A program made the position numbers and the translations under genes. A DNA stretch of 64,000 bases, taken from contig NW_011887299.1 in NCBI RefSeq assembly GCF_000151315.2, positions 84,386 to 148,385 on the forward strand, given 5' to 3'. Positions 1 to 56,146 of the stretch are shown piece by piece (within the stretch, counting starts at the first letter, position 1; every line of letters begins with the position of its first letter). The DNA is from Capsaspora owczarzaki ATCC 30864. Taxonomy: Eukaryota > Opisthokonta > Filasterea. The notes under the pieces were generated by a model. It saw nothing but the letters and a program-made list of their open reading frames with translations. It had not been told where the DNA came from and ran no database searches.

Positions 1-1564
1 GTCCACATTTCCTCCATCAGTGAGCACTCCACTGAATAACTCACTCCCATGCAAAAGTCAATGTGAGATGCCTTACTTGAGCTCCTTCAATGTCATGTTC
101 ACTTTGAGTGCTTCAGCAATCGCCTGTGCTCCAACATCGCCAGTCTCATTGTTGTACAGACTATCCGTCCTTTGTCGTCAGTACGCTGCTGGATTATCCA
201 TTCAACAGCACAGATGTCATACTTGAGCCAAATCAGTCTCTTGTTCACTTTGAGTGCCTCGGCAATCGCCGTTGCTCCAACATCGCCAATCTGATTTTTA
301 TCCAGACTGTCCATCTCTTCCGTCAGTGAGTACTCTTATTGCTCTGTGCTGCATCACCCGCTCATAAGCACCAGTAGATGCGAAATGACTGACTTGAGCC
401 GAAACAGCGTCTTGTTCAATTTGAGTGCTTCAGCGATTGCGTACGCTCCAGCATCGCCAAGCTGGTTCTCTTCCAGACTGTTGATCTCTTCCGTGAGTGA
501 GTACTCTTATTGCTCTGTGCTGCATCGCCCGCTTACAGGCATCAGTCCAAAGAAGCTGCCTTACTAGAGCTCCTTCAGTGTCTTGTTCACTCTGAGTGCT
601 TCAGTGATGGCGTGCGCTCCAGCATCGCCAATCTGAGCGTTGCCCAGACTGTTCATCCCCTCCATCAGTGAGCACTCGTTTGAATCACCCAATCTCATGC
701 ACCGACAAGAGTGAGATGCCTTACAAGAGCAGCGTCAGCGTCGTGTTCTCTTTGAGAGCCTCAAAAATCGCCTGTACACCAGCATCGCCAATCTGTTTCT
801 CATTCAGACTGTTCCTCCCCTCTAGTAGTGAGTACTCTTATTGTTCTGCGCTGCATCACCCGTTCACGTGCATCAGTCAAAAGAAGCTGCCTTACAAGAG
901 CTTGTTCAGCGTCGTGTTCACTCTGAGTGCCTCAGCAATGGCTCGCGCTCCAGCATCGCCAATCTGATTCAGTTGCAGACTGTGCGTTCGTTGTCGTCAG
1001 TATACTGCTGCATTACCCACTCAACAGCTCAGATGCCATACTTGAGCCAAGACAGTGTCTTGTTCACTCTGAGTGCGTCAGCGATAGCCCGCGCTCCAGC
1101 ATCGCCAATCTGATTCTGGGACAGACTGTCCGTTCGTTGTCGTCAGTATACTGCTGCATTACCCACTCAACAGCTCAGATGCCATACTCGAGCCAAGACA
1201 GTGTCTTGTTCACGTTGAGTGCTTCAGCGATAGCCTGCCCTCCAACATCGCCAATCTGATTCTGCCACAGACTGTCCATCCCCTCCACCAGTGAGCACTC
1301 GTCTGAATCACCCATTCTCATGCACCGACAAGAGTGAGAGGCCTTACATGAGCTGCGTCAGCGTCGTGTTCACTTTGAGTGCCTCAGCAATCGCTTGCGC
1401 TCCCGCATCGTCAATCTGCTTCCCATTCAGCCTGTCCCTCCATTTCGTCAGTAACACGCCGTCGCGCTTTCTTTTCAATCAGCTCGAGCTTCCTCTTACC
1501 CGAGATATCTCGCATTCTTGACTTTGCCACACAACTCTCGCTGTCTATCAGTCATGCTTTGCAT
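1..1564 (-). CDS. Leucine-rich-repeat protein, one LRR per exon (5' part of gene)
   Basis: This is the 5' part of a gene that continues past the left edge. Exon 1 (1500-1564) starts with ATG at 1564 (a second in-frame ATG lies at 1555), encodes about 21 residues and ends in phase 2. Nine exons of exactly 84 nt follow: 1348-1431, 1188-1271, 1042-1125, 896-979, 725-808, 565-648, 394-477, 223-306 and 77-160. Each encodes one 28-residue repeat of the ribonuclease-inhibitor/NOD3 type, with the core NQIGDAGAxAIAEAL and KVNxTLxxL. Introns are 62-88 nt, all phase 2, with GTAAGG, GTATGG or GTCAGT donors and CAG/T acceptors. The next acceptor should fall just off the window. LRRs of this kind are protein-interaction scaffolds, found in NLR receptors among others. 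No nucleotide-binding domain precedes the repeats here, so the role is unknown. Confidence 0.85.
77..1431 (-). repeat. Tandem array of nine LRR exon-intron units
   Basis: The unit is an 84-nt exon plus a 62-88-nt intron, about 145-170 bp in all. Units are similar in their introns as well as their exons. The stretches around 984-1060 and 1130-1207 are almost identical across intron and exon, which points to recent duplication of whole units rather than conservation of coding sequence only. All introns are in the same phase, so a unit can be gained or lost without shifting the frame. Confidence 0.85.
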
Positions 1565-1621: not shown

Positions 1622-2234
1622 TGTGACGAACTAGGTGACACCGACGATGACAACTACCACGCATCAGTACGCCCCTCCTTGCCGACTCGTGGGCGCCCCC
1701 GCGTCCCTTAGCATCGTTTCGTGCTCCCAAGTTTTGCTCGCTGAAGCTTTTCACCACGCTTTTTGCCCATTCTTTGTTTTTCCTGTCTTCGGACCAGGTT
1801 TTCTTTTCCGTGTGGTGTTTTTTCTGACTGTTCAGTTGCTTGGGGTTTTTGTTTTTTTCGCCCCGTTCGGGGTTGGGTTTTAGCATGTTTCTTTCCCCCC
1901 AGCATTTTTTTTTTTTTTTTTTTTTTTTTTTTGTTCTCCCGTGCCTGCGCTTGCTTGCCAGTGCGTTGGACTTTTTGTTTTTGTTTTCTTTTTTTTTTTT
2001 TCTTTTTTTTTTTTTTTTGTATTGCATGATTGCATGATTGCATGATTGCATGTTTGCGGATGGAAGCTCGATCCCACCGGGGCTTTTAAAGTCCGGGGGG
2101 ATGTTACGAACTAGGCTCAGCCTAGTTAGGCTTCCCCTCATTCTTCACTATATTCTTAGTACACGATACTTCCGCATTCTATTCTCGCATACTTTAGTAG
2201 TGATACGGGTTATGTTCCGGGTAAGGTCGTAACA
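1622..2234. mobile_element. Candidate non-autonomous (LTR-like) insertion with 5-bp target duplication
   Basis: A 613-bp segment is flanked by direct repeats CAAAC (1617-1621 and 2235-2239). The left end reads TGTGACGAACTAGG. A near copy, TGTTACGAACTAGG, starts at 2102 just after a purine tract (GTCCGGGGGGA), as expected for the start of a 3' LTR. The right end is TCGTAACA, the inverse complement of TGTTACGA. The putative 3' LTR (2102-2234) has TG...CA ends and a perfect 7-bp palindrome (2111-2125). The interior holds two long T tracts (about 1905-1932 and 1989-2019) and four copies of an 8-bp repeat (2021-2052). No coding capacity is seen. The left LTR matches for only about 14 bp, so it is truncated or the element is of another class. 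Confidence 0.5.
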
Positions 2235-2336
2235 CAAACAAAGACTGTCACCTTCCCAAAAACAGACTCAAATGCCAAACTTTCTTGCATTCTTCAGATT
2301 AGAGCAAGGTGGACCTGTTGCCGATAATGGAGCTGT

Positions 2337-2384
2337 TGCATTGCTAATCGTGTTCAATCCCGCATCGCCAATATGATTGCTACG
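2337..2384 (-). pseudogene. Decayed LRR repeat fragment
   Basis: Minus-strand translation gives RSNHIGDAGLNTISNA, the core of the LRR unit used in the array at 77-1431, but the rest of the 84-nt exon is not recognisable and no flanking unit is present. It looks like a remnant of an older copy. The surrounding stretch from 2235 to 2587 holds nothing else that I can identify. Confidence 0.5.
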
Positions 2385-2587
2385 GCATTGGAAAACAACT
2401 GATGAAACGAAATTGTGTTTGAAGCCAAAAAACAAACAGGGAGACCGGCAAGCCAAAGCGACACCATCAACGATAACCAAAACAAAAAAAACAGCAACAA
2501 CAACGAGAACGACAACTGCAATGACGACAATAACAAAATGGTGAAAACATTGCTTTTGAAAACAAAAAAAAAAAATCCGCTTGAGCG

Positions 2588-5397
<2,810 letters not shown>

Positions 5398-5688
5398 TGC
5401 GAAAAAAAAAAAAAAGTGAAGACTGAGATTTGCTCAGAGTTACTTTCAAAAATCGCAAGTGGTCGTTTTGTTGGACTGCAGACACGCACTCGTTTGATCA
5501 AGACACGCAACTCGCTCGATGCTACGAGCGGACGCGGCAAACAAAACAAACCCGTGATCATCATTTCTTGCTTTGAAAACGAAACGACGCTCTGTGCAAA
5601 GCACAGGACACATCAATCTAACTCTCTTCATTGCAAAAAAGCCAAAAACTCAAGCTGCATTCAAGCAAACAACGACAAAGAGGCTGGT

Positions 5689-7349
5689 TCACTCCACGCT
5701 CATCCGCTCAGAATACCCGCCTGCCCCGTTTTGTGGCGTGTAAAGCGGCAACCCAGCTGCTCGGCGCTCTTTGATCCACTCTGTAAACTCGTCTAGTAGC
5801 ACAGGCCCTAGTTTTTTGGCAAGAGACAGCAGTCCTATGTCAGGGGATTGAAACCAAATACGCGAAAATGCAAGCCGAACAAAACTTACACGCTGCAGTT
5901 TCGTCGTAATTGGTCAGCTCTGGGTCCATCGAGTTCATAAAGTCATAGATGCTCATCCATTGATCCCGGTTGATGACCTTGCATGACGGGGTTTCCTAAC
6001 ACGACGACAACATCAGAACAATGGTTTGTTTCCAGGTTCTTATTCGCCTCTGACCTTGCTCCATCTTACATTGAGAAACTCGACAAAAGAGTCAATGGCA
6101 GGCAGCTGCTCGGCCAGCAGAAGGTGCAACAGAGCCGCGGCAACCGGGGTCTGCAGACTCTTTTGGCCGTCGCTTCGAGCAAACTGAAACGTAAACTTGT
6201 ACAACTCGCGGAACCGGCCTGGAGTCATGCTGTCAGCGACGAGTGCCGGTAGCGCACGCTTGAGTTTGGCGTTCGAGTCGCATCTGCACGATTGCGCATG
6301 TCAGAAACAGGCGAGAAAAGGAATAAAAAAAAAAACGACGTGGAAGCACAAAAATGCATGACACATACTGAATGCTCTTCATGCCAGTCACCCACTCGGA
6401 CGACGAAAAGTAACCCATGGAAGCAGCTTCCAGCGTCCAAGCAATGACCAGTACCGCCAGCTACGTTTGTAGAAAGTTGTCAGAATTCACATCCAAAAAG
6501 CGTCAATCCGCACTGCCAAACTCACCGAGTCTGCGGCCAGCTCCATGTCGGCGCAAAACTGTTCAACTCCTCCGGGTCCCATCTTTCCTGATTCATCGGG
6601 ATCGATCGCTGCAGAAGCACACACACGTCAAAACCGCAAACAAAGTGAGCAAGTCGCTTGGTGCGAGCGCGCACACACACATTCACAACCGGGGTCCGTA
6701 CACATGTAATGCTCAAACCAAGCGGTGCAAGTAGCTTCCGAGAATGGTGCATCCTGTTGGATTTCCAATGCAGACAGGAGGTGAGCAGCAATCCAAGCAA
6801 AAGCTTGCAATTCGAAACAAGTAAGGCTCTTACATCGTCCACTCGTCTACCACGATTCGATTCGATGGTCAATTGAGATGCCGTTTGTCAAAGCAAAACC
6901 AGCAGAACAAAGAAAACAACGCAGAAAAACGTCAACTCTCAGAAGCGCGGTCTCAGCAGTGTGTTTTCCCGCCAAAATTGTTCCCTTCTCCAATCCAAAA
7001 TCCACGCTCGGGGACAACCTTCCAACAACGCAGACGAACAAACATACGACTTCTTGCGCGATGCAGCAGCAGCAGCAGCAGCAGTGGCTCGCGGCTGTTG
7101 AGCTCGGCGACCAGGTCGGGCTCCTGCGGCGGCACCATTCGCGCGGCGCTTGCGTCCACGCCCATGGCCCTGGACGCTCTCCTCGTCGTCGTCGTCGTCG
7201 TGGTCGTCGCCATGACCATCATCATCGCCATAATCACCATTCTCGTGATGGCCGTGGGCATACAGATGCAGGTTTGCCAGTGCGGCCGTCTCCTCGCCGG
7301 CCTGTGCGCTGGTCTGTGCCTTGACTCGCGTCGACCGTCTTGGCGGCAT
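5689..7349 (-). CDS. DCN1-like cullin neddylation factor (DCUN1D4/5 type)
   Basis: Eight exons keep phase throughout: 7048-7349, 6834-6846 (13 nt), 6702-6753, 6526-6608, 6369-6460, 6070-6283, 5890-5995 and 5689-5807; about 326 residues. The first 100 residues are low complexity: an Asp/His-rich stretch, a basic stretch and a run of alanines. The rest is a DCUN1 (PONY) domain close to the DCUN1D4/5 subgroup: TAWFEHYM, KMGPGGVEQFC, FSSSEWVTGMKSIQCD, YKFTFQFAR, NRDQWMSIYDF and AWPVLLDEFTEW. The family helps transfer NEDD8 from UBC12 to cullins and so activates CRL ubiquitin ligases. It lies 290 bp upstream of the CaMK start on the same strand and is divergent from the carrier gene at 7872. Confidence 0.9.
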
Positions 7350-7871
7350 TGATCAAGCTTGGCTGCGTTTCAAGGATGAGTCTAATTGTGATGTAACTGT
7401 TGGGCTTGTTGTATGCTGATCACTGCTGCGTGATGACGAGCAAAATGGGAAGGAAGCTGTGTAGTTGGCGACTGAGCCAGAATGCAACAATGCCAAAGTC
7501 AAGTTGAATGACCAAAGACAAAAGGTGCAAAGGCGAACAAGTTCACATAGGTGACTCGAGTATTGGAAGCGAAGTGAAGGAACGATGGGAGGAGTGCTTG
7601 CGGGAGATCAAGATGGAGCCGCGTTCAGAGTCATTTTGTGAGGGAATTCATGGTACTGTGTGTGTTCAAAGTGCATGGTATTCATGTGGTAACATCCATC
7701 CAAACGCCTTGATCTCTTCGCTTGAAATGTGTCCAGTCCAACAGCCACAAAACACCTCAGTCCAGTTTTTGTTTGGTTTTCGTTTGGTTTTCAAGCCAGT
7801 TGACCCGCTTTGGGATCACTACACCTCCAAATCACAACAACGCGCACACATACACACACTATAAATCACCA
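7350..7871. promoter_or_regulatory. Divergent intergenic region (DCUN1 / mitochondrial carrier)
   Basis: This 522-bp gap separates two start codons facing away from each other, so it must hold both promoters and 5' UTRs. I see no convincing ORF, TATA box or repeat in it. Confidence 0.6.
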
Positions 7872-9899: not shown

Positions 9900-12800
9900 T
9901 CAATCGTGGCATGAATCAACCACAAGATGCACAACGACCAGCACAAGATGGGCCACAGAAAGCGCCACCACATACACCACTTTTGGCGCAAACACACTCC
10001 AAATGAAGAGGTGGTGACGTTGAAGAAGAACAGAGGTCACACTCGCGCAGACGTGCAGGGCGTGGAAGACCATCACGCAGTGGATGGTAGATCTGCGAGA
10101 GTCGGTCGAGCGGGCACTCGCCAGAGCCAATAGCACGGAAATCATCATCGGACCGAAGGTGCTTGCAAACAACGCCAGCCCAGGTCCCACCAGGCTGTCA
10201 GTGTCAAAGCCAATGCTGGAGCGCGCAACATCCAATGTGCCGATGGCGTTCGAATTGCCACACGCATAGTAGAACGCATACCCAAGCACGACATGTCCAA
10301 TGCATCGAGTCATGCTGTCCTTCACCTGATGGAGAGCGAGGAGCAACGCGAGAAAGCATGCAATCACAATCAGGTTGGCTGGTCGTTGGTGCAGAACGAG
10401 CATGTGCGTGAGAAACTCGGCACTAATCTCATACAATATGGCACACTTGTTGGGACTGCTCGTCGATTGCGCGCGAGCTGGCAGCAGCAGGCTCCCCAAC
10501 ACCAGTCCAACTGACTTGACGCAAGCCAACAGCCGGAGCTTGTGGATGGTCCCGGACACGTGCTGGGGAGCAAATGCCTGGATCAAGATCAGCCCAAAAA
10601 TGCCCACAGTCGTCACCCAGTGTGACAGATGGTGAAGCCTCGTCGAAATCCCTCTGAGATTTAAAAGTCGCCACATCACTGTGACAAGGAGCAATCCTGC
10701 GACAACCTGACTGCAGAGAAGCACAGGCCAATTTTGGGGATTGTGCAGCTCGCTTGCTAGGTCTGGCACTTGCAACCACTTGACGCCAGTCTGGTTGATG
10801 CTTCGGCCAATCTTGAGCAGGGCCATCGCAAAGGCTAGCCGGACGATCGAAATTCTAGAATTGGATCGACCGAGCAGAACGAGGAGAATGCCGGCGAGCC
10901 AGTACCATGTTTGATGCTCTTCCTCGATAAATGAACTCGAAAAGAGGCTGAGGGCATGTGCTGCAAGAAGGTGTGACGCACAACTGCGAATCCAGCCCTG
11001 GTCTGCTGGGAATGGGTCTGCTGGAGGCACCACAAAGGCCAGCCTTTCAAAGACGACTGCAGCTGCAAACAAGCTTGCCGGCACCCACAGCGACGCGTGG
11101 AAGGAGAACGCTGCGATTTGCTGAACGGAGAGCTCCGGGAAACACTCGGCCAACACGGCAAGAACTGGGAGTGCTGCAATCACCTTCCAGAGCAGCGGCG
11201 CACTAGAAATGGAACGAATCGATGCCAGTGCAACAACACTGATCGTCAAGCAAGCCATGGCAAGATTCGGAAGGTTGGATTGTCGCGACTCAGCGGCCAA
11301 GGCATCAGAAGCATCGCGTGCCAAGAATCTCAGAGCTTGCAGTGTGCATTCACAAGACTTTAATGAAAGGAGATCGTCCTGGGTTGGAATGCCGTAAAGT
11401 TCACGCCTGGCAGAATCGAGCAGAGAGGTGCTGTTGGAAAAGTGCGTGGAGCAGTCTGAATTCCAGTCCTCATTCTGCAGGGCCAGGTCAATATCCTTCG
11501 CAGTGCGGCCAAGGGAGACATAAAGCTGGCGTAGAATACTTATTTGACCGCGAATGAGACGCCGTAGCCTTGGCCGGAGATCAGAGGTGAAACACAACTC
11601 CCGATCCGAGTACTGTCCGCCCAACAACACCGACTCGATCAGAACACCGACGTTGCCGGATGGTACAGGAAGGCCCACGGCCAGCGAGACCGTCGCGGCA
11701 ATGTCAATCTGGCGAATGTGCTGGCGCTGATCGTTGGTGAAGGAAACTCCGCGCCATCTCGCAGCTTCTTCCAAGTTGCCCTGATTAGCTTGCAGCCCAG
11801 ATCCTAAAAAGATGGCGGCCGTTTCTGTCTCCAGCGATGAGGAGCCTCCATGGTTCCCTCGCTCATTGGTGCCATGGTCACCGCACACGACCAGCAATGT
11901 TCGCGTGTTTTGTCGTGCATCCTCTCCCAGCAGTAGTTGGTGCAGGTCAAACAGCATGTCGTCTATTTCATCGAGCTTCGGGCCAAGCGTTGGGCTCGAT
12001 GGCCCCTCGGCGTGGCAGATGTGGTCTACGCCGAGAAAGTGCAGCACAATGCAGCGCCAGCCGTCGTCCGAAAACGCCGATGCCGACGCGGGTACTTGGG
12101 TATTTCGCTGAATGTTGTGTGCATCTAGACTCGAATGCCCTGTATCGTACAGACCCAGCACCGCAGGCACGATGTGTCGAGTCACATTTTGGTCCACCTC
12201 CACAAAATCGTGCACAACAAACGAGGTTGTCCCGTCGTGCAGGCGAAAGTGCCGCGGGTACAGCCGAAGCCACGTGTCGTCTCCAAAAAAGTAGGCCTTT
12301 CTGCCAGCCTCCACCAGCGCATCCACCCAGCTGGCAGGCAGCGGCGGGAGGAGCTTGGCAGATTCGAGCGTTGGCATTGTCGCTTGTTGCTCCAATCCGT
12401 TGCTCGTCGACAGCGACCCGCCAAAATTAAACGCGAGATCCAGAAATCCAGGGATGCTGCCTGTTGTTAGCGCCTTGATGCGCGGCAGCGTGACTGTCGG
12501 CGTCTGTGCATGGGCAACGAACGGCAGCGACCGGTTGGAGGACTGGATGAGTTGACGGAATCGAGCATGATTGGCCCGCCCAGGCTCCCAACGAGCACTG
12601 GATGCGTCACTTGAGCTCCCTGCGTGGTCGGTTGGCTCGCCAGCTTGAGGCAAACGGCGGTACGGCAGCATAAAGTCGGCGCGCAGTGCGTCAATCACGA
12701 CAAAGACCATCCGATCGAACGCCGCAGGACGGTCGCCGCCATCCCAGTTCATGCAGTCTGGCTCGTCGTCAGCACAGCGCAGGGTCGGGTGGGCGAACGG

Positions 12801-12995
12801 ATCGGCAGACCAGCGGCCTGCTGGCGACGGCGATGGCAGCTGGAACAAGCCGGTCGCAAACAGAGTCATCCCGAGCGCCAGCAACGCAGCGCGCACTAGC
12901 AGCTGAGCTTTGCTCGGGATGAATGCATGAGATGGATTGCGCGGCGGATGGGACGCGCCGGAGCGGAGCAGCCGCATCGAAGCAATCTCAGCCAT
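9900..12995 (-). CDS. PIGG: GPI ethanolamine phosphate transferase 2 (PIGG/GPI7/LAS21 type)
   Basis: A single exon encodes 1031 residues, in sharp contrast to its intron-rich neighbours. A hydrophobic signal-anchor lies near residues 30-50, followed by a lumenal alkaline-phosphatase-superfamily domain with the metal-ligand motifs VVIDALRADF, GDDTWLRLYP, HFLGVDHICH and CGDHGTNERGNHGG. The stretch TLPRIKALTTGSIPGFLD contains the region of the catalytic threonine. The C-terminal half (from about residue 560) is a series of membrane segments. HDGTTSFVVHDF and VDQNVTRH favour the GPI7/PIGG branch over PIGO. The family adds ethanolamine phosphate to the second mannose of the GPI anchor in the ER. 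Confidence 0.88.
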   Translation of the reverse strand: MAEIASMRLLRSGASHPPRNPSHAFIPSKAQLLVRAALLALGMTLFATGLFQLPSPSPAGRWSADPFAHPTLRCADDEPDCMNWDGGDRPAAFDRMVFVVIDALRADFMLPYRRLPQAGEPTDHAGSSSDASSARWEPGRANHARFRQLIQSSNRSLPFVAHAQTPTVTLPRIKALTTGSIPGFLDLAFNFGGSLSTSNGLEQQATMPTLESAKLLPPLPASWVDALVEAGRKAYFFGDDTWLRLYPRHFRLHDGTTSFVVHDFVEVDQNVTRHIVPAVLGLYDTGHSSLDAHNIQRNTQVPASASAFSDDGWRCIVLHFLGVDHICHAEGPSSPTLGPKLDEIDDMLFDLHQLLLGEDARQNTRTLLVVCGDHGTNERGNHGGSSSLETETAAIFLGSGLQANQGNLEEAARWRGVSFTNDQRQHIRQIDIAATVSLAVGLPVPSGNVGVLIESVLLGGQYSDRELCFTSDLRPRLRRLIRGQISILRQLYVSLGRTAKDIDLALQNEDWNSDCSTHFSNSTSLLDSARRELYGIPTQDDLLSLKSCECTLQALRFLARDASDALAAESRQSNLPNLAMACLTISVVALASIRSISSAPLLWKVIAALPVLAVLAECFPELSVQQIAAFSFHASLWVPASLFAAAVVFERLAFVVPPADPFPADQGWIRSCASHLLAAHALSLFSSSFIEEEHQTWYWLAGILLVLLGRSNSRISIVRLAFAMALLKIGRSINQTGVKWLQVPDLASELHNPQNWPVLLCSQVVAGLLLVTVMWRLLNLRGISTRLHHLSHWVTTVGIFGLILIQAFAPQHVSGTIHKLRLLACVKSVGLVLGSLLLPARAQSTSSPNKCAILYEISAEFLTHMLVLHQRPANLIVIACFLALLLALHQVKDSMTRCIGHVVLGYAFYYACGNSNAIGTLDVARSSIGFDTDSLVGPGLALFASTFGPMMISVLLALASARSTDSRRSTIHCVMVFHALHVCASVTSVLLQRHHLFIWSVFAPKVVYVVALSVAHLVLVVVHLVVDSCHD

Positions 12996-13240
12996 TGTTT
13001 CTCAGCATCCAAGATCAGGCAAGGTCAAATTTGGAGGTCCCAATCTGCCAGATCTGGAAGAGAAAGGACTGAACAGCATGAGTGCAACAAGCATGCAAAA
13101 CCCGATTGAATGCATTTGAATGAGAGACGACTCAAACAACAACAAATCCCAAAAACAAAACACATTCAATACTCAATCGTACAGAAACAGATCTACAGCA
13201 ATACAACAAACACACTTTCAAACACGCGCACAATCATGAT

Positions 13241-16200
13241 TCATTGAATGGAGCAGGCGGTGGCGCGAGCGAGCAACCCTTCGGTTTGGACGAGCGGTGG
13301 CGAAGGACTGGCTGCCACGCGAACCACGCGCCAGACTGCTGCAGATGGCGGCTGGCCATGGGGCACGGGTGCGGTGGCACTAGCAGCTTCGATGGGGGTC
13401 GAAGAAAGCGTCGCCAGACCTGCAGAGGAGGCAGACGAAGCGGAAGATGCAGAGCACGGCGCCACGGGAGCGGATTGCAGCAGCGCGCCGTCCAGACCGC
13501 AGGAGTACAGCATGCCGCTCTCGCCGTGGAAGGCAACGGACGTGACAATGTCGGTATGTGCCCTCAGGACGGCCAGGCATCGGCCGCTGCCGTTGGCGCG
13601 AGCGTTCGAGATATTCCGCGTGTGCGGAGGCGGCATGGCCCAGATGCGAACGGTAGTATCGGCGCTGCCAGTCGCAGCAACCATGCCGTTCGGGGCAAAA
13701 CTAATGCAAGTGACGGGGCCATCGTGGCCTCGGAAGGTCAGCAGAGGGGTTGGAGGCTTCTTTTGGGCAAGCAGCGCAGCCGAAAGCTGCAGCTGACGCA
13801 TCGAAAGCAGCGAGGGCACGACATGGACGGCAACCGTGCGGTACCCGCTCGATGCAACGGTGGCTGCGAGGTACTGGCTGCAGCTGCTCAGCTCTGCCAC
13901 CCTGCCTCCGATGCCGGCCAACTGAAGGATGGACTGACCCGAGATCAAGTCCCAGAACACGACAGTTGCAGAGGGGCTTTCGCTCGACGACACGAGAACA
14001 AACCGGCCTCCATCGTCATTGTCGACCAGAGCAGTGTTTTGAGAAAAGCACACACTGAGTACCGGGCCCTCGTGCCCACGGTCGTCCAAGGCCAAATCAG
14101 CTCCAGGGATTGGGGCTGCTGTTCGCGCAATTTTGCCAAAATCGTACTTGACGCGTCCAGTCTCGGTACTCCACACGGTCACCCGGCCTTCTGCTTCGCC
14201 GCATGCCATGAACTTGCCGTCGCGGCCAAAGCTCACCGAGCGAACCAGGCGCTCGCAACCCTGGATGAGCTTGGCTTCTTGAGTCTTCGTTGGCAGCGTT
14301 TGCCACATTTTGAGCACCTGGCCGGGCTGAAGCGCGCTGGTGTTTTGCTCGATGGTAAGCCCTGCAGCAGCAACCAGATTGCCGAGCGGAGACATGGCGA
14401 CAGAGTGCACGGGGAATGACTGGCCCAACGTTGCCAGCAACGCCAATGACGACGCATCCCAGACTTTGATACTTCCAAACGTCTCACCGGTGACGAGGAG
14501 ATTGGCGGATGCGCAAACCGACAGGCATGACAATCCACCACATTGGGTGCGGGAAAGTTCGCGGTCGGAAGGCAGTTCGACATCCCAAAGGAGCACCCGT
14601 TTGCTAAACGCGACGGCGACGGATGAGCAGTCGTCGGAAAATCCGACCACGTGTCCGCCTTCAATTTGACGGTGTGCTACCGTATGGCCAGCATCAAGGT
14701 CAAACAGGGTGACCTGAGTTGCGCCGCTGCAAGCGAGAACACTGCTTTGCGTCGCCAGTTTCAGCGAAATACCACGCGAGGAAGGCAATCCCAGTGCAGC
14801 AGAGGCGAGCATGCCAGCTCCAAGCTGGTCAAACTGGCCGCGGCTCAAGTCAAAGGTATACGACTGCTCGAGTTGCGCGCCACGATACGCATGAGGCAGC
14901 TGTTTGCTGCTGCTGCTGCTGCTGCTGGTCGACAGGTGCGAAGTGATGGCAAACACCAGGACGAGATGGCGATCTGTGGTGCATGCAATCCACTTCTGGT
15001 TGCTGGTCGCAGCGACAATGTGCGCATGAGCCACAACATGCTCGCGTGCCAGCACACGCTCCTCCACAGACCACAGCTGCACGGCTTTGGTGGTTGCAGC
15101 GACCACGAGCTCTCCTTGCGCTCCAATCATGTTTGCGTGCAACACAGGCTTGGTTCCCAGCGCCTTCCTGCGGGCCACAATGAAAGCCTCGCTGGAAGGG
15201 ACCGATTCGAGCAAACTGGTGCGTGATCCTGACAGAGAGCGAGCAGCCTCCTGAGCCAACGGCATCAGGCAGCTTTGTGGAACGCAGCCTTGTCGGCCAC
15301 CGAACGAAATCTGCCAAAAAAAAAGAACAGGGGAAGAAAATATTGCGGAAGCAACGACCAGGAGTGAGGTTGTTGTTTGTTGTTGTTGTTTTGGCAACGC
15401 GACCAACTGACAACTTACCCACCACCAGTCCGGGTTGGACTGATCCAGTACTTGCACTTCATCTCCTTCGTGAATGGTCAACTCGTACTCGCGCTGGGCA
15501 ATAAACGAGGTTGCAGTGATGGCACGAGAGGTTGCAGCCTCCGATTCTGAAACGACAAGCATATCAAAAGATGAGGCACGGCCAAACCACGCAATGGCAA
15601 CTTCGCTTTTCCAAAAAAAACCCGCCCCATCAATACACACCTTGTGCAGATCCAGGGCCAAAAACAACGGACGCATCGCTTGAGAGAAGAGCGTTGTGCC
15701 AGATTCGAATCTGCCCAGAAGCATCGCCAGAGACAAGATGCGCATCGCCAACAAACATCATCGACGTCACTTTGTGCTGGTGCCCCACGAGGACGCGACG
15801 GAAGAAGCTGGAACGACGAATGTCGTGCAACACGATCGCGAAATTGGGCGCGCCTGCCAGTTCGCCGTCCACGGCTCCAGCCTCGGTTTGCTCGAGTCCG
15901 GCGACAGCAGCGACCGAGCCAGTGGCGGACAGCACCGGCTGAGCCACCAAGCTCTGCCCAGCGGACGAGTCGGCGGGCTCGGTTGCAGCGTCTCCAAAGA
16001 GCGACTTCCACCAGGCTGGAGGGTCGCTGAACTGCCACTCGTCGACCAACTTGGCGGAAGCGCTCGCTGCAGTGAGTGAGCTTAGCGCGCCGGACGAGCT
16101 CAGAGAGGACAATGAGGACGACGATAACGGCGCGGAGAGCGGAGATGCAACGGTTTTAGAAACATCGCGAGTCGCGAGCTCAGAGCGCATGACGGACCGG

Positions 16201-19200
16201 ACGTCCCAGCGAGAGGCACGCAGGCTCGAGTCAATGACGGTCAAGAGCAACCCATCCTGAGAGAAGGCTGCTGCGAGCGCCTCGCCGCTCAAGTTGGACA
16301 CCAGCGGCAAGTGTTCCACTGGGCCTGCTGGCACGAGGGCGCCCTTGCTGCCCAAATCGCGTGTTTGGGCACCAGCAAGCGTCGCGGCGCTCAAATCGCT
16401 CCCAGAAACATCCGCTTCCACGAGCATGGCATGGGTCAAGTTGGCATCCGGCGCTTGCAGATTTTGCAGCGCAGCTCGATTGAACGAGCAGCCGGCCGCG
16501 GTGAGAACTGACATTGCGTTGGCCACCGAGTGATCCGCGACAGAAGCGTCGCTCGTCAGTCCAATGGCAGCGGATTTGCGCGCTCGTTCGACAATCTGTT
16601 TAAACTGGGCTTCCACCGACGCATCATTGCGGACGCGGTCGGCAAACAGAGAGACCATGTTGAGATCGTCCGTAAAGCTCGGATAAGTGCGGAAGCGGCT
16701 GACAAACTCGTCAGTGTCGGGAGCGGCCACAATGAAGCGCACAGCAAAGTAGTCCAACAACGCCGACGGCGCGAAAGTGTACAGGTCCGTTGTTTCGCTT
16801 GCCTCGCTTGAAGTGGCAGCATCAAAGAGGTTCCAAGTCGAAGCGGAGGATGTCGCTGTTGGCTCCGACGACTTGCCCTTGCTACTGCCAGGCATGGCCT
16901 CCAGAGCCGAGTCCAACACGCTGGACGCGTTGCGCTCTACGCGCTCGATCGAGATTGGCGAACATTCGAGCAGAAAGGCCGCTCGCTGGTCTTGGCGGTT
17001 GAGGAGCAGGCGCCAGACAGCAGGATTGGCGCGAGGGCGCTTCGGGAAGAATGGCGCAGCGGTCAGCTGTTGGCGGAACAGTTCACCGGCAATCTCGCTG
17101 CATGCATCCAGCACTTCGGCCACAACATTCGAGATGCCCTCGGGAATGGCGGCTGTCGATCGCAACCGAGCCATCCGGTGATGAATGTACTGCAGCACGT
17201 ACACATCCACGAGCTCGGTGCGCGTAATGGGTGATGAATGCAGGCTGAGTGCAGCGTGCCGCTCGAACTGCTCGAGCAGCGTTGGAAACGCCTCCGTCCA
17301 CATGGCAATGCCGGAAACGGTTTGGGTTACGACTGCAAACCCCTTCAAGGTGCTGAAGGCTTGCAAAAGCATCGAGGCATCCCAATCCGCAGGAGGCGTG
17401 TCGGCGAGCGCCGCCTCCACCGCGCGCGACGCAACGGACGGGCGGGAAGGAGTGAGAGCAGCTGCTCGGCGGACGGGCGCTCCATCAATGGATACGGATG
17501 TCAGACTTGCAGCTCGTGTGAGGGGAGCGGGTGTGCCGGGCGAGGTGCTGATCGCCACAACCGCGGCAGCAGCCGCAGCAACAGGACTATGCGACAGAAG
17601 CAGATTGGACGACGAGGCGTCACCATGCAGCCGCGAAACGACAGAGCTCGACGATTTGCGTCGCGAAACTGCGCGAGAAGCCACGGGCGAAGAGCCCGGA
17701 CTGGCAGAAACCAAATCGGCCAATCCCGAGCGGTGTTGACGTGCCGATCCTCACGGACGCAATAGCTGCCGCAGCAGTCGTCGCAGCAGCAGACGCATGG
17801 CTGGACGAGGTGCGCTGCTGGGATGTCTTGTTGAGAATGACTCCCAAGCAGCTCTTGTAGTTGGAATTGTCAGCGGCAAGCCACTTGGAAACAAAGGCCA
17901 GCTTGTTCTCTGCCGTCAACGGCTGGATGTGGCGGACAGTCAGGCTCGCGGATGGACTGAACAGCTGCAAGCGACGCTGCTCAATGCGAGCGCAGTCGTT
18001 CGGGCGGGCGGCAAGCACAGTGTTGCAACGCCACTGCTGCAAGTTCAGAGACTCCAACCCGCGCAGATTGGCAACGCAGTCAATCAAGAACGTAAAGCCG
18101 CACGTGAGCTGGAGTTCTCTGACATCAGCAGGCCCCAAGAGCGTGCCAGGTGTGGAGAGGCGTTGCTGGATGGCTCGCTCGAGAGGACCTAGTTCCGTTT
18201 GGCTTTCAAGAACATCCGACATGGAGACGTAGACGGGAATGTTCTTGACGTCTGACCACTGGGCCCAGAGTTCCAGCTCGAGTTGTCGAAGCAGTGTCGT
18301 TTTGCCACTCCCAGCCACTCCGCCAACAACGAGAGCAATGAGGTCGGAAGTCGCGTTGGCCAGCGAGTTTGCAGATTCAAGCTGCTGCAGGAGTGCGTCC
18401 AGCGCGGGAGTTTCCACATCACCTACCGCAGCGGAAACGGCAACAGCAACTGCCGGCGACGACGAGGTGCTTTTTGGCGAATGACCAGCACCCACCTCGA
18501 CAGCCAATGTGGGCGAGACCTGCGCCGGGCGATCGCCCAGCCGCAACGCGATGGGATTCGGCGCCACGCGCGATTGCTGCAGCTCTTGTGCGCGCACCTT
18601 TTGCACGCGCGCAAGCGGGTTGTTTGTCACGCGGGAGAACAACCGCGGCAGGGCGGCATAGTGAGCCTGCGCACTTTGCAGAGTCTGCATGGTGCCGAAC
18701 GACGCATACGACAACCAAGGAGTGCCTGAGATGGCTTCAGTGGCTGAAGCAAACGCATCGTTGATCTGAACGGTACTGGTAGCGAGCAGGTAACAAAACT
18801 CCATGACGAAATAGTCGGAGGCGATGCCGTCGCACTGTCCTTGCATGCCAATCACTGCGTCGACACCAGCCGTTTCATCATCCTCCGGTTGTGTCTGGAC
18901 AAAGAGGCGCCAGGCACCTTCAACAGAGTAGGACGATGGCAGCACCACGCATTGCACCTTGTCCGTGTTGTCGCGAACAACTCTGGCCAAGTGTTCGTAC
19001 AGCGTCAGGCGCGCAGCCATGTCGGCGGGCTGGACGACTGCGCCAGGAACAGAAAACGCAACCACCTGTGGTCGGAAGGAGAGAAGAGAGTAGCGGATTT
19101 GGTCCAGGCGGTCGACATTGACATTCATTCCTGCAATGGCTTCCGGCGAGCTGTGGGGAATCTCCATCACAGTCCAGTGGGGAAGCTTTCGCGTAGCCTC

Positions 19201-21627
19201 GTCTTCATCCGACTCCATCGCAAGAGTATTCTCGGCAGCAGCCTTCAAGAGCGTCGCGTTGCAGATGAAATTCAACACCTTGAAATCTGTAGCATTGGAG
19301 TTGAAGCGCATCACAAGCGTATGAAAAGTTCGGGGGGAAAAGAAGTGAGGACAAGCTGCTCACAAACGAATTGATGTGACATGCAAAACGGTCGGCTCAC
19401 TAGTGGCGCGCCGAAACACTGGGCGAGGTTTGGCAGCGGTGGACGACCAAGCCTTGTGAACTGGGAGGGGGGACAGCAAAACACAAAAGCACAAAAACAT
19501 ATCATTGTCAGTGGAACAAAGTGATATGGGGAAATGCGAGATGAGCTCGGCTGGGGCTGGACTACTCACGTGTTGGCAACGGTGGCTTGTGTGCCAGTTG
19601 AAACCACGGTCGAGCACGCGCAGAGACGCTTTCCAGAGCTTGTGCAAACAATGCAGGATACGAAATGTACGCGTCAGAATCTTGAGCACGAAACAGATTC
19701 TGAAGGAGCGTCGTCGTGAAGCTTAGAACGTCGTCTTGGCCAACGGCGCAGTGCATCGCGTCGATACAGAACGACGACGCATTCAATGCAATCACGCACT
19801 GAGCACCCCAATGGCAGAAGGCGCTGGCAAGACCATATGGGATGGGCGACAAAAAGATCAGACATTGGGCAGTGCATTCGTATCGGTCCTGATGTGCCTG
19901 CTGAATGATTGCGTTGACAGAGTCCTCGTGCTCGTCCAGCCGACCGCGACCCGCCACGACCACGACAGGAGCGGCGTTGCAAGCCTTCAGGAAGTCGTCC
20001 GCTGTTGAAGGAAAAGCTTGGAGCGGTTGACTTCGGACGCGAAGACTGGAGAGGCAACAAAAAAGGAAGAAAGCGTCAGCAAAGGGGGAAATCATAACGT
20101 TGTCCGAACAAGCAAACGAAAAGGAAACACTAATAACGCTGATTCTCGCGTACTCGTCACTTTGCTCAAACGCTGCAAGCAACGGCTGTAGATGCCGAAA
20201 GGATGAATTGGCTCCAGTCGTCACTCCAAACGCCAAGTCCAATGCCACAAGTCGGAATCGATCCACCAGCACGTCTACAAGGTTTGAGGTACAAAGCACG
20301 AGCAAGCAATGAATTTTAAAAAAGCCAAACACACAAAGTGAACCCAAACAGACTTCAGTTGAATGTCGTTTTGTTGCTGCTTACCGTGTCGAGTTGAACC
20401 AGTGGTTGTCGGAAAGCGTGTCTGGAAGGCAAACCACGTCGATAGCGCGAGGAGGTCCTCGTTCGGCATCCAACCACGCGCCGAAGGCACCAGCGGCACT
20501 GGAGCATCGTAAACGCCGTCTGGGACGGGTGTGCGAATCGCTCCATCAGCACTGGCAGGTGTGTTGCTCGTTGCCCAGCGTGCTGGCACAGACGGCTTCG
20601 CATACTGAGCAGCATCAGCGGCGGTGGACGAGGGGAGTGGTCGCGGCACCGTTTGCACTGTCGCGTAGAGCGCCTCTTCCTCAACGTCGTGGCCGCCACT
20701 GCCGGGTTGCACCCGGAGTGGTGCAGTTGATGCGGATGCGTCGGCTACATGATCCACAGGGACGGAGTAGTTGGACGCCGCCAGGTGACTTTGAAGGACG
20801 GCCAGCTTGCTGAACGGGACGGGGCCTGGCGTGCTACGAACTGGCTCGACGACAATCGCATCCACTGGCTCTGAAATCAAGGACACGGCCGGGCTGCTGG
20901 GGGCCTCCACATCCAAGTACCGACGCGGCGAATACGCAGAACCAAGCTGATCTTCGAGGTCGGATCGATCTCCCGGGCTGTCTATGCTGTTTGGTGACAA
21001 GTCTTGGTCGTCTGTCATGCAAGATCGGTGCAATCATGAGCTCGTATATCCGGCAAACAAAAAGCACTGCATGAGAAAACGCTTGACGATCCTTACTCGT
21101 GTCTTCCGCTGAGACGCTCATCGCAGCATGGTTGGCAGCACTTCCAGACGGTTGAGTATGGCTCGGATGATCGTCCTCGATTGAGGCACTGCTATTCACA
21201 GCATTGGCAGGCGCTGGTGGGTTGGACTTGCGACGCGGTGGAAGCGCCGGTTTGGCTTTGCTTGGCTTCTGAGACTGGATCTGAGCATAGGTATCATCAT
21301 CACCAACATTATCATCAACATCATCATTGTGGTCTTGACTTGATGCATTGTTGGTGAAGCGATGATCAGCATCAGTATGGCGATCGCTGTGGACGGCTGT
21401 TGCTTCAGTAGGATCACTTGACTGCGCGGCGATGACCGGGATTGGCGGAAGTGCTCGTCGCGCCAGCTCACGACCGCCGCCCGACACGGCGTTATCATCA
21501 TCGTGATTATCGTGACCATCATGACCATCAGCGTGACTGGATTGAAGCGAGGCAGTCGAGGCGGACTCGCTGGGACGGCGTCGGCGATTCTTCTGCGCTG
21601 CGACGCCTGCAATCTGTGCCGCAGTTG

Positions 21628-21659
<32 letters not shown>

Positions 21660-21955
21660 GCTGCGTGCTGGTGAGGTGGCTGCTCGTAGATGACTGCATC
21701 AGCATTATCAGCATTGGCTGCTGCTGGCTGCTGTTGGGGGGATCGGTGCAGAACAACGTCTGCTTCAATGTACTCGCTCACAAGTCCGTCCGCGCCACCA
21801 TTCAGCTCAGTTCGCTCAGTTTGCTCAGTTTTCTCAGTCTGCTGTTGCTGTTGCTGTTGGGTTGGAGGCGGCGGTGGTGCTGGTCGGCGCGTCGTCGGGG
21901 CTGCAATCCGATCCACTTCAGCATACTCGCCCAGATTCAAATCTGAAGACTCCAT
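13241..21955 (-). CDS. Giant STAND protein: pTyr-motif tail, two degenerate CHAT-like domains, NACHT, pentapeptide repeats, WD40, SH3
   Basis: Nine exons: 21097-21955, 20385-21011, 20154-20274, 19570-20045, 19401-19460, 17741-19286, 15641-17700, 15419-15546 and 13241-15310; about 2648 residues. Residues 1-490 are disordered, with YAEV, YIEA, YEQP, YAQI, YLDV, YSVP, YATV, YAKP and YDAP plus ALPPIPV and PALPPRRK. Two regions (about 495-710 and 715-980) have a CHAT (caspase HetF-like) pattern but lack the His and Cys. NACHT follows near 1030, with P-loop GVAGSGKTT, FLIDCVANLRG and LAARPNDCA. Eight pentapeptide units lie at 16368-16490. WD-like repeats flank an SH3 domain (about 1917-1990; FIAQREYELTIHEGDEVQVL, NPDWWW, VPQS). 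STAND proteins are ATP-switched signalling hubs; the ligand here is unknown. The junction at 17701-17754 is uncertain: the strongest GT-AG pair (54 nt) breaks the frame, while a 40-nt intron keeps it. Confidence 0.8.
16368..16490 (-). repeat. Pentapeptide-repeat segment (about eight units)
   Basis: Between the end of the NACHT module and the first WD repeat the translation falls into five-residue periods of A(N/D)Lxx type, for example ANLTH, AMLVE, ADVSG, SDLSA and ATLAG. Such segments form a right-handed quadrilateral beta helix and recur beside NACHT and WD40 modules in other proteins. Confidence 0.65.
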
Positions 21956-32684: not shown

Positions 32685-35600
32685 ATGACGAAAGGCTTCA
32701 TCACTTCGCCTGCTTCGTCGGCGCCGTCCAAGCCAAAGGGCAAAGAAGGGCGCGAATTTCGCGATGTCCGCCGAGCGCAGGAAGCCGCCGCCGCCGCTGC
32801 TGCTGCCGCCGCCGAGGCCGACAAGGGCAAAGGCAAGGGCAAGGGCAAGCAGCCTGCAGGGACTGGCGGGGCGAGCGCAGCGGGGGCGTCTGGCAGCGGG
32901 GCGAGCGGATCTCAGCCTCGTGGCGGTGGTGCGAGTGGAAGCAACGGTCCAGCCAACGCCGCCGCAGCAGCAGGTGCAGCAGGTGCAGCAGGTGCAGGAA
33001 TGCCAGCGTATGTCATTCGGAACTGGACTGGAAAGACGCCCGCGACGCTGCTGAGCGAGTTTTGTCAAAAGCACCAGCTGGGCAAGCCGCAATGGAACTC
33101 GGTGAGCTCATCCCCGCTACATGCTCATGACACGTACAAGGATGACAAGGGGAAAACAGTCCGCGATGCTCGTCGCTAGGGATGGAACGTCAAGGGAGGC
33201 GAATTTTTGGTCGTACAAAGAGACGCGGACTCCAAATTTGGCTGCTTAGACACGCTCAGAGACGCTCAGAACACAGCCACCGCTTTACTGACTGCTGCTG
33301 TGGTCAATCACAACACTCATCCAACTTTTCACTGATTCTTTTTGTTGGCTTTGTAGCACCAAAAAGGCGGCAAGCACCGCGTTTCGATTATTCTGACCAA
33401 GGAGGACAAAAAGACACGACAGCCGCTCACGCTCAATATCGATCCACCAGAGCTGTATGAGCATCCGATGGAAGCCAAACACATGTACGTCGCAGCCTAT
33501 GATTGGGATTCGGGGGAACGAGGACACTGACTCACACCGACTCACATCGACTCAAACCCCTCCCCGCGCGCCTGCGTTTTGTTGCTCAGGGCCGCCGTCT
33601 GCGCCATGCATCGCCTGAATTCACACCTCAATCTATCCCACATCCTGCCGCCTGACTTTCGGGATTATTGGGCCGCGTTGGACGTGCTCAAAAAGAATGA
33701 CACGGAGGGCATCTGGCCAGCGGCTGGCGGGGACCCGTTCCAGCCAGTCACCAAAGCCGACGTGGAGCGTGCACAGCAAAAGCAAGCTGCCTCGGAGCAG
33801 CGGCAGGCCGAGCTCAAGCAACGAGAGGAGGACGCGCAACTGGCCGTCATTCACCTGAGCGAAGCACAGCGCACAGTCATCGAGGCGCTTGTCAAAGAAG
33901 CGCAGCAAGAAACCGCCAAGCAGCAGGCGGCTGCTTCAAGTGAAGCTGAGGATGCTGATGAGCCTAGCCCTTCTACCTCCACCAGCAATGTAATCCTGGC
34001 AGCCTTTTTTGGTTTTTTCGGCTTTTTTTTTTTTCTTTTGTTTTACTTTTTTTTTCTTTTTTTTTCTTTTTTTTTGGTTTTTTTTGTTAGTATCGTTGGC
34101 ATACTTGCAGAAAACGTCCACCGCAGTTTACCGAGATCTGCTCGCGCTCGGATTTCATGCTCGCCATATTGATGAAGCACTCGGCGCACAGCCAAAAGCG
34201 ACTGCCGCGGCCCAGGAGGCAGCGGCACTCAAGTCGGCAGCCCTGTCCTGGTTGTGCCTGCACGTTCCTGAACAAGACTTGCCTGTGCAGTTCCGACCGG
34301 ACAGCAAGCAATTGACAGCCTCCTTCCACGCCAACACAACGTCGCTGGCGCAGTCGTACATGATTCAACGCCTTCGCGAGGTCGGTTTTGGCCAGCAGCA
34401 CGCATCCATGGCCCTTGAAGCTTGCGGATATGATGAAGATGCTGCTTTGCTTCGATTGCTCCATCTGCTCAAAGAGGATCGTCTGACGGATGCCGACGCC
34501 TTCTCCGCGACCGTGCCCGCCGGTCCACCAAGTGCTCGCTTCTCCGCCGAAGAGATTGATTCGGCCGCTGAGCAGGTGGCTGAGGAGATTGCCGCTGTAG
34601 AAAGCATCTACGGGGTCGTGGCTGCAAACGTCAAGAGCCACGCCGAATGTTCCGCGGCGGACTGTTCGACCGACAGTGTCGTCCGATCCATGATTCGGCC
34701 AACGGCCTCCTGCATCAGCGTTTGCCTCGCAGTGCCCGAATTCAAACCCCACCTGGTCGAACTCGAACTCAAGTTCCCTTCGTCCACCTGCCTGTATCCG
34801 AATGAAACGCCTATTGTGGTCATCCGGCATCCAGCTTTGACTTCCACCACGCGGCTTGTGCTGCAGCGCGCAGCATTTGAGTTTGCAGCCTCTCTGGCTC
34901 CTGCACCGCTGTTGTACTCGCTGATTGATTGGGTCCAAACGTCGGGCGTTGAGGTGGTTCAAAACCCACCACCGCTGTCAACGTCAGCCATGCAAGAGGC
35001 GGCTGCTGCGGCTGCTGCTGCTTCTTCTTCTGCCAGCTCGTCGGAACCAGCCCCAGCCGACGCCGCTTCGGCGACGCCTGCCGCACGCACAGGAAAGGAT
35101 GGCAAGCAGCAACAGCGGCGCAGACGTTCGCCGTTCCACGCGCTCCGCACCGATGCGAAAGAGTCTGCGGCACTGACCAAAGCGACGCCTGCCTTCAAAA
35201 AGGTGTTTGACAAGCGAAGCAAGCTGCCGTCCCACAGCTACGTGAAAGAAATCCTGTCTGCTCTGGCGGCCAACCAAGTTGTGGTGATTAGTGGTGAAAC
35301 AGGCTGCGGCAAGGTATGCAGGCGACGACAAGCCGTAGAGTTTGCATTTTATCGACGAAATTTGTGCACTCAGTGTTTTGATGAATGTGCAGACGACCCA
35401 AGTCCCTCAGTTCATTTTGGATGCGCTGATTGATCAAAATCAAGGGTCGACGTGCAGGTATGTTTTTGGCGAAAACGATTGGTTTTGGGTTTTTTGTGTT
35501 GTTTCGACTGTTTGGATTACTGTTAACTCGCTCGTCTCCTCCATCTGTTCTTATATCTCTCTCCTTCAGACTGTTGTGCACGCAGCCCAGGCGTATCTCT

Positions 35601-55300: not shown

Positions 55301-56146
55301 TCCCCTTTCTTCCTTCTCTTCCTGATGAGGTGTGCTCTGAGCTCATTCAGTATTTGTTGCCTTGTTTGACTTTGCACAGCACCTGCGCGTCAAGACCGTC
55401 CTGCACATCAATCCTGCCGGATCCTTCGCGGACCTGGCGATTCTGACGGGCTCATTTTCAGAAAACGTGTACGGGCTGATTACCTTTGTCGAGCAAGAAG
55501 GAGCCGAGCAAGATGTCGGCAGCAAGAAGGGGTCGTCCAACAAGGTAAGCTGGTTACGTTTGGTTGCCGTGGGTTGCTTTTTTCGGAACGCCGTCTGCAG
55601 ACTGACGATTCGGGCACGCACCAGGCACGCATCGGCCGCGAAAGCCGTGTGATTCCGAATACCATCTACAGTATCGAGCAATTCGAGCGTTTCCTCATTC
55701 AGCTCTCCAAGAAAGCGTCGGTACGACAGCAGCAGTCACTACTTTGCACAGAGTTTGAGGGACGAGGAACATGCGACTCGCAATGCTGCGACTCTCTGAC
55801 CAAATTTGCTGCTGTTCGGATTGACAGATCAATTATATGCGCACTCACAAGCGCAGCACGACACGCGACTTTCGCATTTTGCACAAGGAACTTGAGACGG
55901 CCGTGCGAGAGCAGGAGGAGGCTGTAGAGGACAGCAAACAGGTACTGTTGACAAAACGCATGCAAAACATCAAAACAAGCAGACAAAAACGAGGATTGCT
56001 CAATGCCCATCTCCCCACATTTGTGGTTTTATTGCCAAACAAAGCAGACTCGTAAATCAAGCAAGCGGCCGAACGAGGAAGCAGGAGACGACTCGTTGGA
56101 AAACCAAACACTGAACAATTTGGGACTGGGCTCAATGGTGCGTTGA
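49319..56146 (+). CDS. FANCI: Fanconi anaemia complementation group I protein
   Basis: Twenty-five exons (first 49319-49669, last 56048-56146) join in phase into about 1466 residues; human FANCI has about 1328. Conserved blocks include VNQICSCRWDD, PLTEEELHFFVEKV, ALVYQLLVLSMKG, LRKSLF, RRCLTQQSSVRLRLYNGL and IYSIEQFERFLIQLSKKA, and the C-terminus has basic NLS-like KRSTTRDF and RKSSKRP. The family pairs with FANCD2 as a sliding clamp in interstrand-crosslink repair. The site of the conserved ubiquitinated lysine (human K523) is Glu here (GAA, 52457-52459), and little of the nearby SQ cluster remains. The 53525-53620 stretch is open in frame but looks like an intron. One intron (52199-52297) has a GC donor. 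The N-terminal 120 residues are poorly conserved. Confidence 0.92.

Follow-up and report, generated by a model that had tools for sequence, protein, structure and literature searches.

NWD1 and TEP1, examples of NACHT/STAND proteins with C-terminal WD40 repeats, and the bacterial STAND proteins that carry CHAT or pentapeptide parts, are among the described systems closest to the gene examined here, which lies on the minus strand, from position 21955 to 13241, of a 64,000-nucleotide stretch of the Capsaspora owczarzaki ATCC 30864 genome (contig NW_011887299.1, positions 84,386 to 148,385; "the window" in the following). Its predicted protein runs from a 469-residue low-complexity tail through two CHAT-like domains, a NACHT P-loop and pentapeptides to WD40-type repeats that enclose an SH3 domain, and we tentatively read it as a STAND sensor or scaffold that would signal through its tail, which, once clustered, would be a substrate of tyrosine kinases and a docking place for CRK or other SH2 adaptors. 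With the NACHT-WD40 proteins it shares a NACHT-type P-loop followed by a WD40 array, but here the Walker B motif is degraded, pentapeptides intervene, an SH3 stands among the repeats and a tyrosine-motif tail is present. According to PMC8195603 and PMC7159879, in part, pentapeptide, STAND and caspase-superfamily parts can occur in combination. The likeness to bacterial STAND proteins is the modular layout of an N-terminal caspase-like part, an NTPase and repeats, whereas the CHAT-like parts here are without the protease dyad and below Pfam detection, and a eukaryotic SH3 and a tail have been added.

Compared with p130Cas/BCAR1, this protein has only four YxxP motifs, a divergent SH3 and a fusion to a STAND protein; no FAT-like C-terminus is among the Pfam matches listed, no dedicated FAT search having been made. 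The SH2 domain of CRK prefers YDxP. What is shared with BCAR1 is an SH3 with several YxxP motifs, here including one YDAP, as possible ligands of CRK SH2 (PMC5043372, in part). A table of that paper gives no significant BCAR1 match for Capsaspora, and a passage of it describes divergent transmembrane proteins with YxxP repeats in this organism.

Animal NOD-like receptors (NLRs) can be under tyrosine-kinase control, as a part of PMC4490404 describes for BTK and NLRP3, and the likeness would be a tyrosine kinase acting on a NACHT protein, which is predicted here from sequence. However, animal NLRs have death-fold N-termini and leucine-rich repeats (LRRs), and Pfam found neither from the tail to the pentapeptides, around the SH3 or at the C-terminus, nor was an LRR among the best 25 of 43 families matched by the C-terminal half as a whole; an animal-type NLR was therefore rejected. 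NACHT proteins outside animals are known, since several choanoflagellates have NACHT-LRR proteins according to a part of PMC6040629, which also mentions choanoflagellate proteins in which a TIR is joined to a kinase or an SH2 domain. The latter combine an innate-immunity-type domain with tyrosine signalling in a close animal relative, as the present protein may, but with TIR instead of NACHT, and with reader or writer domains where the present protein has a putative substrate tail. An adaptor domain on an immune-type protein also has precedent, because TRADD-N proteins of the NCOA6 clade have a peptide-binding SH3 followed by LRRs, some with an SH2 (PMC8195603, in part). No NACHT protein of Capsaspora with an SH3 or a phosphotyrosine tail was found in searches of one open-access library of papers, judged by title and start of abstract.

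Tyrosine motifs and SH3 ligands of the tail

The tail (residues 1-469) has 10 tyrosines, and eight of them are Yxx[VILMFP] (YxxPhi in the following), against a mean of 2.57 in shuffles that keep composition (p 0.00075). Six of these eight have an acidic residue at most four places before (p 0.00035), and four tail sites are YxxP (p 0.014). There are six consensus SH3 ligands, of both class I and class II, compared with a shuffle mean of 0.74, and this number was reached in 0 of 20,000 shuffles. The tail PxxP stretches ALPPIPV and PALPPRRK, pointed out in the first-pass annotation of this DNA, are borne out, as RALPPIP and PALPPRR are among the six; its "about nine" Yxx-hydrophobic/proline tyrosines are eight of ten.

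21457-21437, minus strand: RALPPIP, SH3 ligand in exon 1
21250-21230, minus strand: PALPPRR, SH3 ligand in exon 1
Y11 YAEV, Y90 YEQP, Y223 YAQI, minus strand: exon 1 tail tyrosines (motif scan)
Y318 YLDV, Y368 YSVP, Y402 YATV, Y423 YAKP, minus strand: exon 2 tail tyrosines (motif scan)
20511-20500, minus strand: Y454 YDAP, exon 2 tail (motif scan)

The other 2173 residues of the protein hold 25 tyrosines, with 10 YxxPhi, no YxxP and one SH3 ligand. For comparison, 59 open reading frames (ORFs) of at least 400 amino acids were taken from sampled genome stretches, and 41 were left (28,919 residues, including non-genic frames) after nine of this gene and nine duplicates were dropped; in these, 35% of tyrosines are YxxPhi and 7.9% YxxP, and at least four YxxP together with at least four SH3 ligands occur in one of 129 ORF windows, which adjoins an SH2 match. 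As is common in disordered regions, the tail also contains runs rich in Q, A and D/H. In a check by eye of the tail site list against the definitions of the immunoreceptor tyrosine-based activation and inhibition motifs (ITAM and ITIM), the five sites that have V or I at +3 or come next closest showed neither the 6-12 spacing of a YxxL/I pair nor the -2 residue of [IVLS]xYxx[ILV], and an ITAM/ITIM receptor was rejected on these spacings and residues.

Domains of the predicted protein

In the C-terminal half, Pfam matched WD40 (2.3e-31), SH3_2 (1.2e-9) and SH3_1 (2.4e-7), and together with the pentapeptide match listed below this confirms three of the modules first annotated; GRB2 is the best PDB match of the SH3 (1e-9). 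The first-pass annotation would have given up its reading had a profile search found no SH3 or NACHT; the SH3 is clearly matched and the NACHT marginally. Directly before the SH3 lies a WD40-type repeat (residues 1859-1891, 18.7 bits) and directly after it a propeller match (residues 2002-2080, 25.2 bits), which are under their cut-offs of 27 and 30, and strong WD40 matches follow downstream, reaching about residue 2563.

18730..19286, minus strand: CHAT-like domain 2 (CVVLPSSYS, GVDAVIGMQG), Ser at the Cys position (inspection)
18295..18321, minus strand: Walker A (P-loop) GVAGSGKTT, intact; NACHT profile match
18064..18093, minus strand: Walker B position TFLIDCVANL, acidic residues usual after the first D missing (inspection)
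16377..16496, minus strand: pentapeptide repeats (AGCSFNRAALQNLQAPDANL...), Pfam 2.2e-6, 27.5 bits (cut-off 20.2)
15257..15523, minus strand: SH3 domain, split by intron 15418-15311, between propeller-type stretches

When aligned to GRB2, the SH3 has T in place of the first aromatic of ALYDY and C in place of the tyrosine of SNY, and it keeps the second aromatic (F), the Trp and the Pro of the PxxP groove. Among 16 Capsaspora SH3 stretches from sampled loci, 15 could be compared at each place, since one breaks off before the first and the K of another at the last, probably beyond the exon end, was set aside; the first ALYDY place is Y/F/W in 11 of 15, H in three and E in one, and the SNY place is Y or F in 13 of 15 and L in two.

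With the protein scanned in pieces, NACHT reached 27.8 bits (cut-off 26.7) over positions 3-54 of the 167 of the profile, i.e., the P-loop part. By inspection, Walker B reads DCVAN where DGLDE is usual, with a single D in place of the DGxDE-type acids, and the ATP-switched NACHT first proposed is therefore unsupported in its intact form, although Walker A is whole.

Neither CHAT-like piece has a Pfam match to CHAT, and there are none across the Capsaspora genome. With a profile of 27 bacterial CHATs (from eight bacterial genomes, found with a STAND-associated type of consensus), domain 2 came out on top with 7.4 bits and domain 1 in fifth place with 2.1 bits; of 400 shuffles, the best scored 3.4, which is below domain 2, and only this one outscored domain 1. 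In hhalign, both domains and the first domain of a second gene, L044 (see below), each beat 60 of 60 shuffles, at a probability of 6-14% (6 and 14% for the two domains here) and with alignments that fall within the C-terminal half of CHAT. A profile of 79 other bacterial CHATs gave no support (the two domains rank 18 and 188 of 318), and a PDB search with domain 2 gave no matches. In a by-eye alignment to bacterial CHATs, the positions of the His-Cys dyad read VVVVAGRG/FLSPI and VVAFSVPG/VLPSS, so the catalytic His and Cys are absent from both domains, and an active CHAT protease was rejected. The CHAT-like modules of the first-pass annotation are thus weakly favoured by our 27-CHAT profile and by hhalign and not by Pfam, and we designate the two domains, with weak confidence, as CHAT-like and not as CHAT. 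Taken together, the tail, SH3, WD40 and pentapeptide parts are beyond chance, the NACHT marginally so and the CHAT-like parts weakly.

Gene model

The model is a single large gene of nine exons and 2642 residues, whose start ATG at 21955 is immediately preceded by an in-frame stop and whose one stop codon (13241-13243) ends the frame. Each of the eight introns has GT-AG ends and a G at donor +5. By codon scores trained on four further stretches of the Capsaspora genome, the chosen frame beats the other five in eight of the nine exons, and in exon 5 (20 codons) it ranks second by a margin of 0.03. The gene is real, and probably one gene rather than several; a nine-exon gene of about 2650 residues with this module order had been claimed from the outset, and the consistent frame, the introns and the domain matches agree with it.

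21097..21955, minus strand: exon 1, start codon and first part of the tail (frame, motif and translation analysis)
20385..21011, minus strand: exon 2, remainder of the tail and beginning of CHAT-like domain 1
20154..20274, minus strand: exon 3, N-terminal part, CHAT-like domain 1
19570..20045, minus strand: exon 4, CHAT-like domain 1 (VVVVAGRG, CLIFLSPI, GAQCVIAL), without catalytic His or Cys (dyad by inspection)
19401..19460, minus strand: exon 5, linker
17759..19286, minus strand: exon 6, CHAT-like domain 2 together with the NTP-binding half of the NACHT
17701..17758, minus strand: intron 6, 58 nt, weak donor GTCCGT
15641..17700, minus strand: exon 7, remainder of the helical STAND region (ITRTELVDVY), pentapeptides and the first of the WD40-type repeats
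15419..15546, minus strand: exon 8, bulk of the SH3
13241..15310, minus strand: exon 9, SH3 end, main WD40 array, stop codon

At window 17758-17749 two donors overlap, four nucleotides apart (GTCCGTGAGG); one leads to the full-length protein and the other would lead to a truncated product, and a truncated tail-CHAT-NACHT form could, as a prediction, be made beside the full protein. The neighbours are a glycosylphosphatidylinositol (GPI) ethanolamine phosphate transferase at window 9900-13001 on the minus strand (PIGO_PIGG 6.6e-32) and a DEAH-type helicase at 35430-37895 on the plus strand (OB_NTP_bind 3.2e-19).

Genome context and a second gene

The Capsaspora genome (27.46 Mb, 29 contigs) was searched together with 14 control genomes. 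It gave 34 SH2 and 101 SH3 matches, counted per exon, some SH2 matches being halves of one domain, so these are not domain counts. The Runt domain, a family that none of the 14 controls has, was matched twice. Searches of its own genome for paralogues by sequence matched nothing but the gene itself, and the best E values of exon 6 and exon 7 parts in tblastn against plasmids were 4 and 1 (NTPase or pentapeptide stretches).

A pentapeptide search of the genome led to L044, a distant gene that lies on the same contig and shares part of the order (G000:C8:1329000-1338900, plus strand, frames 2-1756 and 1992-7586): CHAT-like, degenerate NACHT-like, pentapeptide and propeller, without an SH3. By inspection, its P-loop lysine is replaced by N (KAGYGNSA) and a Walker-B-like VVLFLEGLDEW is kept. 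Its CHAT-like 2 and NACHT stretch (by eye), pentapeptides and propeller are in one uninterrupted frame of 1865 amino acids. It has no comparable tail, its first frame having one YxxP and no SH3 ligand, where the start of L044 is not mapped.

The same genome has a TEP1-like gene (L039, named by inspection) with NACHT and WD40. Elsewhere (L027, positions 1-1416, plus strand, G000:C13 near 54190-55605), a proline-rich frame with five YDDPWD repeats as well as YDAP, YIDP and YIAP adjoins an SH2 match and is a possible SHB/Cas-like tyrosine-kinase substrate.

Proposed mechanism and alternative explanations

Because the gene is frame-consistent, its domains are recognisable, its tail is enriched and the genome is rich in SH2 and SH3, we favour, if tentatively, a single large STAND-type protein of the cytosol that acts as a sensor or scaffold. 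Sensing and holding would fall to the WD40 array with the pentapeptides, while the NACHT would bind nucleotide, with hydrolysis probably poor because Walker B is broken, and would serve as an oligomerisation switch that is slow or works one way; both CHAT-like domains, their protease dyad lost, may act as structural or partner-binding modules. Upon clustering of molecules, the N-terminal tail would be the output: SH3-bearing tyrosine kinases would bind its RALPPIP and PALPPRR sites and phosphorylate its YxxP/YxxV tyrosines, and SH2 adaptors would dock there, CRK in the case of YxxP. Sensing, oligomerisation, loss of hydrolysis, kinase recruitment, phosphorylation and docking are all steps that we infer. 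The tyrosine-kinase output of the first-pass annotation accords with a motif-rich tail in such a genome, and the receptor role and the phosphorylation that it added stay predictions.

Several points weigh against this proposal. It is predicted from sequence, and the tail has no sequence relative in which conservation of the motifs could be seen. The NACHT module named in the first-pass annotation, just above the cut-off by its P-loop, falls below it (21.5 bits) when the whole N-terminal half is scanned, and the model is loose, since at E 0.001 it matches in 11 of the 14 control genomes and above the cut-off in three. AlphaFold2 without an alignment gave low confidence (mean pLDDT, the predicted local distance difference test, of 37.1 and 34.9). 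In L044, Pfam finds neither NACHT nor SH3, and the stretches of it read as CHAT-like 2 and NACHT could not be aligned with their counterparts here. Finally, intron 6 is the weak joint of the gene model, where the GTCCGT donor at 17758 restores the right frame.

That joint could be taken to mean that a tail-CHAT-NACHT protein upstream and a WD40-SH3 protein downstream are encoded separately, by two genes or by one that a frameshift at exon 6/7 has broken, as the frame-legal donor is weak and the stronger-looking GTGAGG (17754), with the acceptor at 17701, removes 54 nt and runs in the wrong frame into a stop after 26 codons; there are many further frame-legal splice pairs, with poorer sites. 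However, between 17768 and 17726 the codon score of the exon 7 frame climbs out of about -9 to reach +0.7 and +2.9, while that of exon 6 is negative by about 17664-17643, which places the frame change at intron 6; STAND-type features (ITRTELVDVY, by eye) carry on past the junction, and L044 carries the corresponding stretch unbroken in one frame, which favours one gene. A simple two-gene model is unlikely given these scores and that frame, and a split of either kind is most improbable. The tail, in turn, might be a flexible proline-rich spacer whose tyrosines stay unphosphorylated and whose motif count mirrors composition, in line with its disorder-type runs and the absence of a sequence relative, but shuffles of the same composition fall far from the observed eight YxxPhi and six ligands, and we consider such a spacer unlikely.

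A static scaffold of the p130Cas kind, in which a STAND relic is a structural platform and the tail a constitutive kinase substrate with no sensing switch, would agree with the degraded Walker B, the missing dyads and the BCAR1-like pairing of SH3 and YxxP (PMC5043372, in part); the fully intact Walker A, the well-preserved WD40 array and the absence of a FAT-like match among those listed speak against it, so that we hold it to be somewhat unlikely. The first-pass annotation suggested self-inhibition, in which the protein would be held closed by its own SH3 bending back to a PxxP site of the tail, and an SH3 and consensus class I and II ligands do occur in the same protein. Yet two groove aromatics are replaced by T and C where most sampled Capsaspora SH3s keep them, and for this reason ordinary SH3-PxxP contact is doubtful and the SH3 domains of kinases are likelier readers of the tail; some binding by the own SH3 is possible, as Trp and Pro are kept and other Capsaspora SH3s depart too, but closure of the protein in this way seems quite unlikely. 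A long shot is that two half-dead STAND proteins, the present one with its Walker A and L044 with its Walker-B-like motif, work only together, as sensor and partner, and report via the tyrosine tail of the present one; if true, an intracellular danger receptor outside animals would be wired straight to tyrosine-kinase signalling.

Significance

According to passages of PMC5043372, the expansion of tyrosine-kinase signalling predates animals, and the substrates that SRC, ABL and FAK type kinases had before animals count as unknown. The gene is a concrete candidate for such a substrate that would also be a STAND sensor. Should the tail act as its motifs suggest, a unicellular relative outside animals would have sensing inside the cell coupled to tyrosine-kinase signalling, and the origins of intracellular immune-type sensing and of phosphotyrosine signalling would, if this is true, be tied together in one molecule.
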